Below, piece after piece: positions 6,779-19,581 of a stretch of DNA of 64,000 bases. Below the pieces are notes generated by a model. That model saw only the letters and a program-made list of their open reading frames with translations. It was not told the origin of the DNA and searched no databases. The stretch lies in contig NZ_CP114905.1 of the NCBI RefSeq assembly GCF_027497195.1, forward strand, positions 4,785,001-4,849,000. Reading direction: 5' to 3'. The position numbers and the translations under genes were made by a program. This stretch comes from Streptomyces sp. WMMC500. GTDB lineage: Bacteria > Actinomycetota > Actinomycetes > Streptomycetales > Streptomycetaceae. The stretch's first letter is position 1; each line of letters starts with the position of its first letter.

Positions 6779-6871
6779 GGCGCCGTCGGCGAGGCGAGGA
6801 TCCCCCGTCGTCGACGAGGCGGGGCGGCGTGGCGCCGTCCCGGGCCTTGGCGTGGGAGAAGAACAGACATC

Positions 6872-7960
6872 ATGCGCGACGACGCACACTTCGTCGCTCG
6901 GTGCGCCCGCGGTCTGGAACCGCAGTTGGCGGCCGAGATCCTGCGGAACGAACTGGGCAGCATCACCGCGACCGGACACCGCTCCGTACACTTCCGGGCC
7001 CGGCGCCCCTACGACACGGGCGTCACGGAACTGCGCACGGCGGACGACGTGTTCCTGCCGGCCGCGCGCGGCCGGGACGTGGGAACGACCAAGGCGGGCC
7101 TGCCGGAGCTGGGAAGACTCGCGGGGAGGTGCGACCCGGCACGGCTGCTCCGCCACCGCAACGCCCTCGTCCCGCACCTCACCGGTACGCCGCCGGGGGT
7201 GGAGGTCTCGGCGTCGTTCCTGGGCAGGCGGAGCTTCACCAGGTACGACGCGGAGGACGCGGTCGGCCGCGCGCTCGCCGCCCGCCTGGACGTGCCGTAC
7301 CACGCGCGCCGCACCGGGGGCGCGCCCCCGCCGGACTACGCGCCGTGGCGTCTGACGCTGGACGGCACCGAAGCGACGCTGATGCTCCGCATCACCCCGC
7401 GCCCGCTCCACCGCCGCCCGTACAAGCAGTCGACGGTGCCCGGGAGCCTGCACCCGCCGCTGGCGGCGGCGATGGCGGGGCTGGCGGCGATCGGACCCGG
7501 CCACACGGTCCTCGACCCCTGCTGCGGCGCGGGCACCCTGCTCATCGAGGCGGCGCTGGCCCACCCGGAGGCGGCGCGCTACCAGGGCTACGACATCGAC
7601 CCGGCCGCGCTGGACGCCGCCCGCGCCAACAGCGCCACCGCGGCACTGGACCGCATCCGCATCCACCGGGCCGACGCGGGCAGACTCCCGCTCCCCGACG
7701 CCTCGGTCGACCGCATCGTGTGCAACCCCCCGTGGGGCACCCAGGTCCACCCCAGGGCCCGGCTCGCGGCGGCCCCGTCCGCCTGGTGGCGGGAGCTCCG
7801 CCGCCTCCTCACCCCCACCGGCAGCGCGGTGCTCCTCCTGCCGACCCCCGGCCCCCTGTCCCCGGCCATCCGGGCGGGCCTCCTGCCCACCCACACCCAG
7901 CGCGTCCACCTGGCGGGCTCCGTCACGTACCTGGTCAGACTGGAACTCGGGAGCGGGTGA
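6872..7960 (+). CDS. THUMP-domain RNA methyltransferase (Trm14/RlmL-like)
   Basis: A 362-residue protein with an N-terminal ferredoxin-like plus THUMP region (residues about 5-170) for RNA binding, then a Rossmann methyltransferase: motif I TVLDPCCGAGTLLIEA (213-227), acidic motif GYDIDPAALDAAR and the N2-guanine type catalytic motif CNPPWG (284-289). The NPPW signature points to N2-methylation of guanosine in tRNA or rRNA using S-adenosylmethionine. GGGAGAAG lies nine bases before the ATG. A 7-codon leader peptide upstream suggests translation-responsive control. The exact RNA target cannot be told from the sequence. Confidence 0.85.
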   Translation: MRDDAHFVARCARGLEPQLAAEILRNELGSITATGHRSVHFRARRPYDTGVTELRTADDVFLPAARGRDVGTTKAGLPELGRLAGRCDPARLLRHRNALVPHLTGTPPGVEVSASFLGRRSFTRYDAEDAVGRALAARLDVPYHARRTGGAPPPDYAPWRLTLDGTEATLMLRITPRPLHRRPYKQSTVPGSLHPPLAAAMAGLAAIGPGHTVLDPCCGAGTLLIEAALAHPEAARYQGYDIDPAALDAARANSATAALDRIRIHRADAGRLPLPDASVDRIVCNPPWGTQVHPRARLAAAPSAWWRELRRLLTPTGSAVLLLPTPGPLSPAIRAGLLPTHTQRVHLAGSVTYLVRLELGSG

Positions 7961-8144
7961 CCAGGTGGTCTGTGGACCCGGCGCCGGGCGCGGTGAGCGG
8001 ATCGGCGGATCCGGCACAGGAGGACCAAGACGGAGGACTCGGACAACTTCCTGTCACTGCCCGCCGGCGGGGCCGCGGCGACGGAAGGGGCGACCGGATA
8101 ACCGGGGCCATAACGGTCACAGGGGAACGGACCGGCCCGTACGC

Positions 8145-12433: not shown

Positions 12434-13807
12434 TCATGCGGCTCGGCGCAACACCTCGGCGACGGCCCCCAACGACCGGTGAGGGTGCAAGCGGGTCAGG
12501 AAGGTGCGGGCGCGCTGCCGCGGACGGACGGAGCCGACACCGGCTGAGAGATCGATGACCCTGCTGATCACCTTCGCAGACTGCTCGACCTCCCCGGCGT
12601 CCAGATAGGCGTGAGCGAGCCAGGAGAGGTAGAGCGCCTTGTCCCGCGCATGCGCGTCATCGAAGTCGGCAAGCGCGGCCTCAAGCTCGGGGACGGCGCG
12701 CAGCGGGCGGCGCAACTCCGTCCAGCACCGGCCCTTCATGATCTGCAACTCACGCCCGTCGACCCACGATGCCCAATCGGGTCCTGGCTCGTCGGAGATG
12801 CCGCTCAGGGCCTCCTCTGCGTGGGCGAGCGCGCGCTCTGTCTCTGTCGCCTCCCCGGCACGCGCATGAGCCCAAGCCCGGCGCTCGTACAGCAGACCTA
12901 GGACGGTGGGCGGCACATCGGGTCCCGCGGCGTTGCACGAGGCAACCGCAGTGGCCACTCCCGACGCTGCGCTACTGACCTGCTGGTACGCGAGGAAGGC
13001 AAGGGCGTTGCCCTCAAGGGCCGTGTCCTTCGCCTCTCTGGCAGCATCGTGCGCTCGCCGGTAGAGAGCGGATGCCTCCCGCTGATCACCAGCATCGAAT
13101 GCGGCCCAACCCGCCTGCTGCGCCTGCTCAGCGACAACCGTGAGCAACTGCCTGCCGGTGGTCTCCGAGTAACTGGCGCGGCGCATCAGGCGCACGGTGG
13201 CGTCCAACTCGGCGCGGTAGACATGGCGTGTGTCTGTCCCGCCTAGAACGTCGTCCAGGCGGCGGAGCCGGGAAGAACGTAACCGCAGGTGCTCTACGTC
13301 GCGATGGCCGAGCCGGGACCCTGCTCCGCTCTCGGGGAGCATGCCGACGACTCCTGCGAGTCCTGTTGTCGCGAGGAACCTCCTGCGCCGCACGTCGTCT
13401 CCTTCTTGATCGGCTGTTGCCGCTCTGCCGGGACAGGGGGCACCTGCCGCCTTCGAATGATCAGACAGAAGCAGCGCTTGATTCTCTTGGTCGCTCGGTG
13501 CCCGATCCTGTTGCGCTTGTTCCCACGGGCGTGGCGCCAAGCCGACGAGGTGACCGGGAACGGCCAGTGCGTCCGCGATGCGCGTGATTTTCTCGTAGGT
13601 GGTGATCGCGCCCTCGCCCCGGGCTAACTTCCCCACGCGCTCGGGCTTGATGTCGCAGGCGTCGGCGATCTTCACGAAACTGATTCCGCCCCATTGCCGG
13701 GCCAGCTTGAACACCTTGCCGAAATCATGACACCGCAGCGCGGCCTGCACATCGACACGGTTGAGGACGTGCGCCGGTAGAGCGGCTGGCGACATGCGGT
13801 CTGACAT
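12434..13807 (-). CDS. XRE-family regulator with C-terminal TPR-like repeats
   Basis: A 457-residue protein: helix-turn-helix at about residues 30-90 (ISFVKIADACDIKPERVGKLARGEGAITTYEKITRIADAL), a linker with RRRRFLATTGLAGVVGML that resembles a vestigial Tat-like segment common in this family, then alpha-helical TPR-like repeats from about residue 215 to the end (EASALYRRAHDAAREAKDTALEGNALAFLAYQ, ALYLSWLAHAYLDAGEVEQSAKV). It is divergent from the ATP-binding protein gene at 13966 and probably regulates the peptide/methyltransferase operon behind it. TPR regulators of this type often respond to small peptides or signals, but no ligand can be deduced. Confidence 0.85.
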   Translation of the reverse strand: MSDRMSPAALPAHVLNRVDVQAALRCHDFGKVFKLARQWGGISFVKIADACDIKPERVGKLARGEGAITTYEKITRIADALAVPGHLVGLAPRPWEQAQQDRAPSDQENQALLLSDHSKAAGAPCPGRAATADQEGDDVRRRRFLATTGLAGVVGMLPESGAGSRLGHRDVEHLRLRSSRLRRLDDVLGGTDTRHVYRAELDATVRLMRRASYSETTGRQLLTVVAEQAQQAGWAAFDAGDQREASALYRRAHDAAREAKDTALEGNALAFLAYQQVSSAASGVATAVASCNAAGPDVPPTVLGLLYERRAWAHARAGEATETERALAHAEEALSGISDEPGPDWASWVDGRELQIMKGRCWTELRRPLRAVPELEAALADFDDAHARDKALYLSWLAHAYLDAGEVEQSAKVISRVIDLSAGVGSVRPRQRARTFLTRLHPHRSLGAVAEVLRRAA

Positions 13808-13965
13808 GCGACTTCCCCGTCATCTGTCTCTACGGAATCATCAGCCAATCCGTCACTGGAGTGTACCCATCATGGGTATCCCCCTCGCCGGGAATCGAGA
13901 TCGGCATCTCTTCTCCCATCCTGTCGGTCATGCGGCTTCAGCAACTGGACACAGGCGGACAAGCG

Positions 13966-14388
13966 ATGACGTGGCAGTGGCGGCGGCATCCCCGGTGTGT
14001 TGCGCTGGCGCGGTCGCAGATGCGTAAGGCGTTGGCCGGGTGGGGGCTGGTCAGGATCGAGGGACCGGCTGTGCTTGTGGTCTCGGAACTGGTCACGAAC
14101 GCGGTCGTTCATGCGGGTGTGCAGGGGCGGGAGGTCTCAACGCGGTTTGTCCGGCTTGACGGCGGGGTGCGCATTGAGGTGCATGACGCCTCCGACGATC
14201 GGCCGGTGCGGCGTGTGCCGGACGGCAAGGGCGGCTTCGGGCTGCACCTGGTTGAACAGTTCGCGGCTCGGTGGGGGGTCGCAGAGCGTGCGATCGGCAA
14301 AACCGTGTGGGCCGTGGTGGTCGACCCGGAGTGGGTGCGGGGGGATCTCGGAGAGGGCAAGGGCGAGGTGTCATGCGGCAGAGGCTGA
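13966..14388 (+). CDS. ATP-binding protein, GHKL/anti-sigma factor-like
   Basis: A protein of about 140 residues with a single HATPase_c domain: N box LVVSELVTNAVVHAG, G1 region IEVHDASDDRPVRR, G2 region GGFGLHLVEQFAARWGV, then KTVWAVVVD. This is the RsbW/SpoIIAB-like fold abundant in Streptomyces, usually acting as an anti-sigma factor or accessory kinase. ATG 13966 is chosen with GGCGGA ahead; ATG 13930 is in frame upstream. It lies divergent to the XRE-TPR gene and 148 bases before the peptide gene, likely the first gene of that transcription unit. It is the only intact copy among three such genes on the island. Confidence 0.8.
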   Translation: MTWQWRRHPRCVALARSQMRKALAGWGLVRIEGPAVLVVSELVTNAVVHAGVQGREVSTRFVRLDGGVRIEVHDASDDRPVRRVPDGKGGFGLHLVEQFAARWGVAERAIGKTVWAVVVDPEWVRGDLGEGKGEVSCGRG

Positions 14389-14536
14389 TGGTCGTGCTGT
14401 GAGCGCGGTCTGCGTGCGAGGCGTGGTCTGGCCGGCAGTGCGGCCTACTCCGGTTGACCAGGGGGTTGTGGAACCGGCTGGCTCCCACAAGCCCGAGTAG
14501 GACGGTACCGAGCAGAGTGAATCGAGGAGGATGGGC

Positions 14537-14683
14537 ATGAAGATGAGCGTGCAGCGGTGGTTGTTGATGGCGGAGGGTGGCAACCCGCAGGATGACAGCG
14601 ACAGTGGGAACAAGCACGGTGGTGGCGGCTCGGATGAAGGCGGCAACACCAACGACGGCCAGGGACCGGCGGACGGACGCTGA
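14537..14683 (+). CDS. Candidate RiPP precursor peptide, 48 residues, Gly/Asp/Asn-rich
   Basis: A small gene with a strong ribosome site (GAGGAGG six bases before ATG 14537) whose stop codon abuts the ATG of the PIMT-like methyltransferase. The peptide has a hydrophobic N-terminal leader-like part (MKMSVQRWLLMAEGG) and a polar C-terminal core with NPQDDSDSGNKHGGGGSDEG, two Asp-Gly steps (residues 40-41 and 46-47) and Asp-Ser steps (20-21, 22-23). Asp-Gly and Asp-Ser are the sites at which PIMT-type enzymes favour aspartimide formation. No ATP-grasp, LanB/C, YcaO or radical-SAM gene is near. This matches, from memory, the imiditide/pamtide class of peptides modified by a stand-alone PIMT homologue. 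An earlier in-frame ATG at 14531 is too close to the ribosome site. Confidence 0.75.
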   Translation: MKMSVQRWLLMAEGGNPQDDSDSGNKHGGGGSDEGGNTNDGQGPADGR

Positions 14684-15862
14684 ATGACCAAGCACGAGTT
14701 GGCGGAGGCCGGTCCTGAACGGCTGGCCTCCGCGTTACTGGACAAGGGGGTGCTGACCTCCGATTGGCTGCCCGCGTTCGAGGCGGTGCCCCGGCATCTG
14801 TTCATGCCGGATGTCATCTGGCCCGGTCAGGCGGGTATGAATCGGCCGAACGACCGGGTGATCCGTTCTGCGGAACCGGAGTTGTGGTGGCAGGCGGTCT
14901 ACCGGGACGCGCCGATCACCACGCAGTGGGATGACGGCGCCTACACCGGTCCCGGCAAGGGCAAGATCCCCTCAAGTTCCAACTCCATGCCGTCCATGGT
15001 CTTTTCCATGCTCAAGGCGCTGGACGTGGACGACGGGCACCACGTATTGGAGATCGGCACCGGAACGGGCTGGAATGCCGCCCTGCTGGCGCGCCGGCTC
15101 GGCTCCGCCAACGTCGTCACGGTGGAGGTGGACCCGGCCGCTGCGCAGGAGGCCGGTACCCGTCTGGAGGCAGCAGGGTGCAATCCGGTGACGGTGGTCG
15201 GTGATGGCGCCCAGGGGCATGCGCCGCGGGCTCCTTATGACCGGGTGATCGCCACGTGTTCCGTAAGCCGTATCCCCTCCGCGTGGATAGAGCAGACCCG
15301 GCCGGGTGGTGTGATCGTCGCGCCGTGGGGGCCGACCTACGGCGGGGAAGCCGTTGCCCGACTCACCGTGGCCGACGACGTCACCGCTTCGGGCCACTTC
15401 GTGGGCTCCTCGGCGTTCATGCGCCTACGCGCACAGCGGACGGCCCGCCCGCACGTGCGTGACTACCTCAAGGGCCGCCCTTGGCCAGCGGACGGGGACC
15501 GGTCGGTGACCTCGCTGTCCCCGGACGAGGTGGGTGACTGGGTGGTGATGTTCGCCATCGGTCTTCAGGTGCCGGCGGCGTTTCCGTGGATGGAGTCCTA
15601 CCCGGATGGCTCGTACACGCTGTGGCTACGCGATGCCGCTGTCACCTCGTGGGCCACGGCGGACTATGAGCCCAACCGCAGTGAATACGAAGTGGTGCAG
15701 TCCGGACCCCGGAAGCTGTGGGATGAAGTCGAGACCGCCCACCGCTGGTGGGTCGAACAGGGCCAACCCGACTTCAACCGCTTCGGACTGACAGTCGGTC
15801 CTCAGGGCCACTCCGTCTGGCTCGACACACCGGACCACCAGGTCCCGCTGACTGTCAGGTAA
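14684..15862 (+). CDS. PIMT-like O-methyltransferase with C-terminal extension, RiPP maturase type
   Basis: A 392-residue protein. Residues 1-220 form a protein-L-isoaspartate O-methyltransferase domain: SSSNSMPSMVFSML (97-110) is the substrate loop, VLEIGTGTGWNAALLARRLG (121-140) the SAM motif, VVTVEVDP the acidic strand and GDGAQGHAPRAPYDRVIATCSV motif II. Housekeeping PIMT is about 210 residues; the extra C-terminal domain of about 170 residues (YLKGRPWPADGDRSVTS..., WWVEQGQPDFNRFG) is the mark of PIMT homologues in RiPP clusters. It follows the peptide gene without a gap, so the two are translated together. The inferred role is methylation of an Asp side chain of the precursor, followed by ring closure to aspartimide. 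A repair role is less likely because of this context. Confidence 0.85.
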   Translation: MTKHELAEAGPERLASALLDKGVLTSDWLPAFEAVPRHLFMPDVIWPGQAGMNRPNDRVIRSAEPELWWQAVYRDAPITTQWDDGAYTGPGKGKIPSSSNSMPSMVFSMLKALDVDDGHHVLEIGTGTGWNAALLARRLGSANVVTVEVDPAAAQEAGTRLEAAGCNPVTVVGDGAQGHAPRAPYDRVIATCSVSRIPSAWIEQTRPGGVIVAPWGPTYGGEAVARLTVADDVTASGHFVGSSAFMRLRAQRTARPHVRDYLKGRPWPADGDRSVTSLSPDEVGDWVVMFAIGLQVPAAFPWMESYPDGSYTLWLRDAAVTSWATADYEPNRSEYEVVQSGPRKLWDEVETAHRWWVEQGQPDFNRFGLTVGPQGHSVWLDTPDHQVPLTVR

Positions 15863-15965: not shown

Positions 15966-16013
15966 CGCGCTCGGCAGGATTCGAACCTGCAACCTTCTAA
16001 TCCGTAGCTCTAT
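15966..16013 (-). repeat. Partial tRNA-Arg copy, probable attachment-site remnant
   Basis: The minus strand reproduces the 3' part of the tRNA-Arg(ACG) at 21202-21274: acceptor 3' strand, T arm, variable region and anticodon-arm 3' half. There is one substitution (TCAGA to TTAGA), then loss of seven bases and a short CTCTAT match. Integrases that use tRNA genes leave such a 3'-end duplication, so this is read as attL/attR of an element ending at 21.2 kb. It cannot fold as a tRNA. Confidence 0.75.
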
Positions 16014-18915: not shown

Positions 18916-19581
18916 TCACATGCTGGTGTCTGCCTGGTTCGGAGGTGGGAGGTAGGGCACTGGTGTGACTGTCCAAGTAGCGTGCGTGGTGTGCTCCTTC
19001 AGGGTGAGGGTGTGGGTCTGGCCCTTCGCCGGTTCTCGGGTCGTCTCGGCTTGGCCGTGTTCGATCCAGTGGCGGGCTTCACGGTAGGGCTCGTCGTCCA
19101 TGTTGATCGCGACCATCATCAGCGTGGCCTTGTGCCATCGCAGTGCTTCGTCTGTGCCGTGGGCGTTGAAGTCGGTTAGCCGGCGCTCGTTGACGTGGCA
19201 CTCGCAGAGAAACCGGCGCTCCTCTGGGGGAGTTCGTAGGGTTATCGATGCCGCCCCTGCGTGCTCGGCCGCAGCCCGGTGGCCGACCTCGGCTGAGGTT
19301 CCGGGTCTTTCGTGCCGGGGTCCAGTTCGAACCATGACCGTGTAGCCCTCGTCGTCTCCGCTTACTTCCATGCGTTGGCCGAGGGCCGAGACGAGAGTGA
19401 GTCCGCGGCCGTGGGCGTCCCCTTCCGTCGCAGCTACTGCGTGGGGTTTCCTCCGACCGCCGCCGATGTCGGTGACTGCCAGCACGACCGATCCCGAGGT
19501 GCGGAGGAGCGAGATGCGCATGCTCCCGCTGGCCGCTCCGCTGGCGGTGTGCAGTAGGGCTTTCGTGCTCAGCTCGCTCAC
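18916..19581 (-). pseudogene. Degenerate ATP-binding (HATPase_c) protein with long C-terminal tail
   Basis: The frame shows GHKL features but damaged: the N box reads IVSELSTKALLHTA, with Lys where the magnesium-binding Asn is expected, G1 is TDIGGGRRKP and G2 is GRGLTLVSALGQ. Homologous codons (RPGLPEEVGRVRRW, TTCAEEAALI) continue upstream of GTG 19581 to about 19715, but no ATG, GTG or TTG start exists in that stretch. The C-terminal 110 residues (FLCECHVNERRLTDFNAHG, MVAINMDDEPYREARHWIEHG) are a separate region of unknown role. Loss of start and N-box Asn argues for a pseudogene, although a rare start codon cannot be excluded. Confidence 0.6.

Follow-up and report, generated by a model that had tools for sequence, protein, structure and literature searches.

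The closest described relatives of the locus analysed here are the type I pamtides (imiditides), represented by SpaA-SpaM of Streptomyces sparsogenes and NmaA-NmaM of Nonomuraea maritima (PMC10787088, PMC13001092). For SpaM and NmaM (PMC10787088, PMC13001092), and likewise for FcaM and graspetide enzymes, others have shown that methylation of an Asp leads to an aspartimide and then mainly to isoAsp. The mean composition of the type I class is 17.3% Gly, 16.8% Pro and 10.2% Asp, its imiditides carry a strong positive charge (PMC13001092), and charge-based recognition between peptide and enzyme has been reported for NmaA and SpaA. Type I pamtides number 1,414 (PMC13001092), which does not fit the description of the class as small in an earlier note on this DNA.

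In the 64,000-nucleotide stretch of DNA analysed here (the window), two abutting genes on the + strand encode a 48-aa peptide and a 392-aa two-domain PIMT homologue (Table 1). Like the type I pamtides, this is a two-gene unit in which the PIMT homologue has a C-terminal extension of more than 100 aa (about 168 here) and a WxxxGxP motif, one Asp next to Gly is constant, no ATP-grasp, LanB-type or lasso-cyclase-type gene lies nearby, and the enzyme clade adjoins the one that includes the S. sparsogenes locus. The locus genuinely belongs to the type I pamtides/imiditides, where it forms part of a highly conserved, acidic branch, and we consider it quite likely that it acts as a two-gene RiPP unit converting one Asp to aspartimide/isoAsp. 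We did not find a description of this branch, or any of three strings from its core, in the literature texts searched; precursor lists sit in supplements, and the branch is likely included in the published type I lists.

The window peptide (MKMSVQRWLLMAEGGNPQDDSDSGNKHGGGGSDEGGNTNDGQGPADGR) has a net charge of -4, 12 Gly, 6 Asp, 2 Pro and no Cys. Its Gly (25%) and Asp (12.5%) contents fit the type I class means, whereas its Pro content (4.2%) does not. The peptide and its relatives, hereafter family A, are also more acidic than SpaA-like peptides, in contrast to the strong positive charge of the imiditides. The branch extends the isoaspartate-peptide class to acidic, proline-poor precursors.

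Related methyltransferases also occur in other RiPP classes. Type II pamtides (cysimiditides) are two-gene units as well; however, since the window peptide contains no Cys, it can have neither a zinc ribbon nor the CxxCxGxG motif, of which type II precursors have two. The methyltransferases of group 13 graspetides (graspimiditides) belong to the same subfamily model, TIGR04188, but here no ATP-grasp gene lies beside the unit: the sole TIGR04187 (ATP-grasp) match in the genome, at 3.55 Mb, is 1.24 Mb away and forms a graspetide-type pair with its own adjoining methyltransferase. Unlike in PIMT lanthipeptides, the peptide lacks Cys and PF04738 (LanB-type) is matched only at 3.94 Mb, 0.85 Mb from the unit; unlike in PIMT lasso peptides, the nearest PF00733 match (Asn_synthase/lasso-cyclase-type) is 0.73 Mb away. 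The earlier note had seen no ATP-grasp, lanthionine or lasso enzyme here, and this holds for the three models searched (TIGR04187, PF04738 and PF00733, all matched more than 0.7 Mb away).

The two-gene unit and its methyltransferase

The short gene was described in the earlier note as having a strong ribosome site and a stop that abuts the methyltransferase gene, and both points stand: GAGGAGG lies 6 nt before the ATG, and the 48 codons end in a TGA (14681-14683) directly followed by the ATG of the methyltransferase. An alternative in-frame start (ATG 14531) would give a peptide of 50 aa, but it touches the ribosome site.

Table 1. Features of the peptide-methyltransferase unit and its immediate neighbours, in window coordinates
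Feature	Position	Strand	Basis
Ribosome-binding site GAGGAGG	14524..14530	+	Seen in the letters; 6 nt separate it from ATG 14537
Gene for the 48-aa precursor peptide (family A)	14537..14683	+	Relatives directly upstream of methyltransferase in 60/114 loci
Conserved module QDDSDSGNKHGGGGS, codons 18-32	14588..14632	+	Near-invariant in alignment A1 and 49 rows
NTNDGQGP, codons 37-44	14645..14668	+	Retained in almost all precursors
Asp40 codon GAC, predicted modification site	14654..14656	+	Asp in 49/49 rows; site inferred
PIMT-type Asp O-methyltransferase (PAMT), 392 aa	14684..15862	+	TIGR04188, tree, AlphaFold2 model
SAM-binding GTGTG motif, residues 125-129	15056..15070	+	Read in sequence
Extra C-terminal domain, about residues 225-392	15356..15859	+	Beyond PCMT match; model strand order
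WVEQGQP = WxxxGxP motif, residues 356-362	15749..15769	+	Motif described in PMC13001092
NsdA-family regulator, neighbour, probably outside unit	12434..13807	-	NF053720, 241.8 bits
HATPase_c_2 (anti-sigma type) protein, neighbour, probably outside unit	13861..14388	+	PF13581, 33.4 bits

The enzyme matches the RiPP-type model TIGR04188 with 356.9 bits over 362 of its 363 positions, 23 bits below the curated cut-off. Together with the WxxxGxP motif, found in 52/60 family A enzymes and in 26/28 of those accompanying the proline-rich peptides described below (family B), and with the placement of its clade, this bears out the membership of a PIMT-type RiPP class that had been proposed in the earlier note. 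The PCMT match (PF01135) covers residues 83-219 and is followed by about 168-170 C-terminal residues, as the note had also read. In the AlphaFold2 model of the enzyme (pLDDT 91.7), structure comparison identifies a PIMT fold in the N-terminal domain, and the C-terminal domain is predicted to run strand-helix-4 strands-helix plus two strands, an order that, as modelled, agrees with the one reported for this group of RiPP PIMTs.

Most other structures compared align with the N-terminal domain only, but the alignments of 1vbf_B and 5bxy_B extend into the C-terminal domain, and the Thermotoga maritima PIMT (1dl5, 22% identity) covers almost the entire model, including this domain. The T. maritima protein is not known to be a RiPP enzyme.

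On the proposed mechanism, the 48-residue peptide would be made and recognised, mainly in its C-terminal part, by the adjacent SAM-dependent methyltransferase, probably via the enzyme's extra domain. The enzyme would methylate Asp40, within NTND-G, on the carboxyl group of its side chain, where both site and chemistry are predictions; the ester would then close spontaneously to an aspartimide, and its hydrolysis would yield mostly isoaspartate. The net effect on this acidic peptide, rich in glycine and otherwise linear, would be a rearrangement of its backbone at a single position. We infer that the peptide is the substrate of the enzyme and that it undergoes no modifications beyond those of the methyltransferase.

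We did not observe net-charge matching between peptide and enzyme when 60 family A and 28 family B enzymes were compared, since in family A both partners are acidic. The mean net charge of the C-terminal domain is -3.6 in family A (60 enzymes, including one outlier of +22), -1.1 in family B (28) and -4.7 in the other enzymes (25), and the domain is thus not more basic in the clade with acidic peptides. Over their last 40 residues, the peptides have a mean charge of -4.7 in family A and -2.2 in family B, means that include spurious out-of-frame L040 rows; by the same count, family B peptides are thus slightly acidic too. Because charge matching is not seen, the branch offers a good test of how enzymes pick one Asp in a linear peptide. 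Among the enzyme residues that separate the two clades are 244, 280, 286 and 311; family A mostly has Ala, Pro, Trp and Tyr at these positions, where family B mostly has Glu, Glu, Arg and Arg. When peptide and enzyme were modelled as one fused chain, with the peptide stop read as a residue, the enzyme was modelled well, while the peptide was disordered (block means of pLDDT 25-35) and was not placed at the active site; the model is therefore silent on where Asp40 goes.

Distribution and phylogeny of the pair

We compared 114 loci oriented on the enzyme, some of which represent one strain fetched twice. The peptide encoded upstream is of family A in 60 loci and of family B (proline-rich, SpaA-like, with PDG) in 28, and fits neither pattern in 26. 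Inspection by eye of this last set revealed ATP-grasp-like genes upstream in two loci (L107, L113) and, beside an enzyme relative in Streptomonospora (L118, 5804-5932, +), a peptide with two CxxC motifs (CxMCxGTG and CPNCKGTG) that resembles a type II pamtide precursor.

Searches that started from the peptide gave the same pairing. When 392 Streptomyces genomes were searched with only a peptide profile, built from 27 members of family A, 43 gave a match (E<=0.01), and in 30/30 best loci the enzyme followed at a distance of no more than about 70 nt and in the same orientation. Five of these loci (L132, L144, L147, L153, L158) look like independent finds because their enzyme identities are absent from the enzyme-fetched loci. 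Nine further profile matches include four with an adjoining enzyme (L160-L162 and L165, with L160 broken into frames); the other five, all with E >0.001, have no enzyme beside them and look like chance. A search of public proteins with the peptide returned 22 relatives, the nine named ones all being called "hypothetical protein", and every family A row with a named origin comes from Streptomycetaceae. The peptide is thus conserved beside its enzyme, contrary to one way in which the earlier note could have failed. One locus (L169, 849-1868, -) carries a precursor-like peptide in one frame with a partial methyltransferase whose start is missing and whose end diverges, and looks like a decayed fused remnant.

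For the phylogeny, the 114 loci gave 113 enzymes within the length limits, 101 after removal of L001 and of identical sequences, and 100 after removal of near-copies. In this 100-enzyme tree, the family A clade (SH-aLRT 98) comprises 52 rows, namely 49 of family A plus L023, L058 and L068. No recognisable peptide gene lies beside the enzyme in L058 and L068, although L060, where such a gene is present, shares a contig with L068. The neighbouring clade (SH-aLRT 98) holds 34 rows, 26 of family B and eight others, among them L093 from S. sparsogenes, the source species of SpaA/SpaM; L093 is probably the SpaA/SpaM locus itself. The long-branched L116 is unresolved between the two clades. Peptide type changes between A and B once on the tree if the 25 neither-type rows are ignored; when they are counted, the label A needs four changes. 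The enzyme groups with RiPP-type PIMTs and not with housekeeping ones, the other outcome that would have spoken against the earlier note.

Conservation of the precursor peptide

Conservation was assessed in 49 non-redundant family A rows selected by two peptide patterns; the divergent L023, and L058 and L068, with no recognised peptide, were excluded. Mean pairwise identity is 0.83 in the C-terminal core, 0.62 in the enzyme and 0.32 in the upstream part of the peptide, and the core is more similar than the enzyme in 1083/1176 pairs. This distinguishes the branch from the described type I pamtides; family B (26 rows) shows hardly any difference between core and enzyme identity (0.651 and 0.645). 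That the core varies less than the enzyme acting on it would suggest a signal-like function or a conserved partner, and not an antibiotic shaped by an arms race. Across 43 distinct DNA versions, a 27-codon block of the peptide gene has a pN/pS of about 0.19, a value biased low because the block was chosen by a pattern that fixes residues.

The earlier note had described a polar core with Asp-Gly and Asp-Ser steps, and Asp40-Gly41 proves to be the constant one. Position 40 is Asp in 49/49 rows, the sole Asp position so kept; it is followed by Gly in 47/49, and Pro44 is present in 49/49. The hydrophobic, leader-like part noted upstream is real in the window copy, but it is not conserved as a leader, since a second, Gly-rich KHGGG-like repeat takes the place of the W-containing N-terminus in several places: in two early-diverging branches of the family A clade (L022, L024, L028, L030, L032; the Kitasatospora group), as well as in L027 and L031.

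Several precursors have lost other modules and retain Asp40 next to an intact enzyme. Those of L018/L046, with an unclear start codon, are without QDDSDSGNKHGGGG, and that of L043 is without NPQDDSD. The shortened precursor of L165 (2203-2382, +), which amounts to a natural deletion experiment, reads GNPQDDSDSG-NTNDGQGPADGR, without the KHGGGGS module, and its neighbouring enzyme is 66.7% identical to the window enzyme over 381 residues. Judged from these sequences, the natural deletions would narrow the essential part to N[TS][NS]D-G..P, apart from L027 and L031, which have a divergent RDD variant at the NTND-G position, and L023, whose divergent HGGGG peptide is without NTNDG.

A further proposal is that family A represents a third type of pamtide precursor, in which the very constant, acidic His/Asp/Gly module DDSDSGNKHGGGGS would give the otherwise linear peptide a shape, perhaps through cysteine-free metal binding or docking to a conserved partner, and the isoAsp at position 40 would tune a conserved, signal-like peptide of the Streptomycetaceae. 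We regard this as quite unlikely, since L018/L046, L043 and L165 each lack some of the module. What aspartimide/isoAsp peptides do is a question posed in PMC13001092, and the branch gives a handle on it because the pair can be deleted in ordinary Streptomyces.

Small Gly/Asp/Lys-rich peptides distantly resembling these precursors, with H-G/S-G and often S-D-G steps, are encoded just upstream of the methyltransferase in L104, L108, L110 and L115, and may belong to a wider precursor superfamily.

Alternative readings and genomic surroundings

Modification of a different or additional Asp (Asp19, Asp20, Asp22 or Asp46), rather than of Asp40, appears unlikely. Asp19 and Asp20 are kept in 47/49 rows, with the remaining Asp positions at 43 or fewer, and DDSDSG is conspicuous in the core. 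However, QDDSDSG is wholly or mostly absent beside intact enzymes in L018/L046 and L043, and the terminal Asp (aligned) is kept in just 37/49 rows, while Asp40 is never lost in these rows and corresponds to the PDG Asp that is constant in 26/26 rows of family B. It is hardly credible that the enzyme is a protein-repair PIMT next to an unrelated or untranslated small ORF: the PIMT fold and PF01135 match of its N-terminal domain would be expected of one, but its scores against four repair-PIMT models (114.9, 101.7, 84.4 and 78.6 bits) fall far below their curated cut-offs (188, 282, 159 and 359), and the peptide shows protein-level conservation and accompanies this clade of enzymes.

We find it very unlikely that the peptide is first cross-linked in trans, for example by the ATP-grasp graspetide synthetase of this genome, and that the methyltransferase acts only on the cyclic product. 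Other RiPP PIMTs do mostly require cyclic substrates (PMC13001092), the Ser, Thr, Asp and Glu residues of the peptide could be ester-linked, and a TIGR04187 match is found in 26/32 peptide-bearing genomes. On the other hand, the synthetase of this genome has a methyltransferase of its own, and the adjacent enzyme clade includes, by species of origin, a linear-peptide system. Moreover, six of the 32 genomes (G029, G273, G039, G157, G237 and G297), all 99-100% complete, have no TIGR04187 match at E<=1e-30, and a graspetide synthetase is therefore not a general requirement. Methylation of Asp40 in the linear peptide is our preferred reading.

To see which genes accompany the pair, we compared the neighbours in 60 sources (the window, a second unit in the same genome, and 35 loci of family A plus 23 of family B), several of which have short flanks. 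Besides the peptide-enzyme pair itself, no neighbour is widely shared. The earlier note had counted a regulator pair as part of the cluster; homologues of the NsdA-like regulator and of the HATPase gene each occur beside the unit in fewer than three of the other 59 sources, and we do not retain them. The neighbours that recur most, with matches in 12 and 10 other sources, are two genes of regulator type located upstream of the second unit. This second unit (4770809-4772107; L120, about 6810-8120) lies 29 kb upstream of the first and outside the window, encodes the same core peptide and an enzyme 78% identical, and has a DUF5753 regulator and a DUF6879 gene as neighbours. A further PIMT homologue in the genome, at about 3.867 Mb (-; L003/L122), is a 461-aa frame 37% identical to the window enzyme.

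Downstream of the unit, the window encodes an AIPR-domain protein (PF10592; 16476-18446, -), of a family named for abortive phage resistance, followed by an HATPase_c_2 gene (18916-19581, -). The stretch at 15970-16010 resembles a tRNA T-arm read on the reverse strand (ggattcgaacc), although ARAGORN calls no tRNA there, and may be an old attachment site. The window also encodes an IS605 OrfB/TnpB-type protein (PF07282, PF01385; 4774-5955, +), which lies between the genome's two units.
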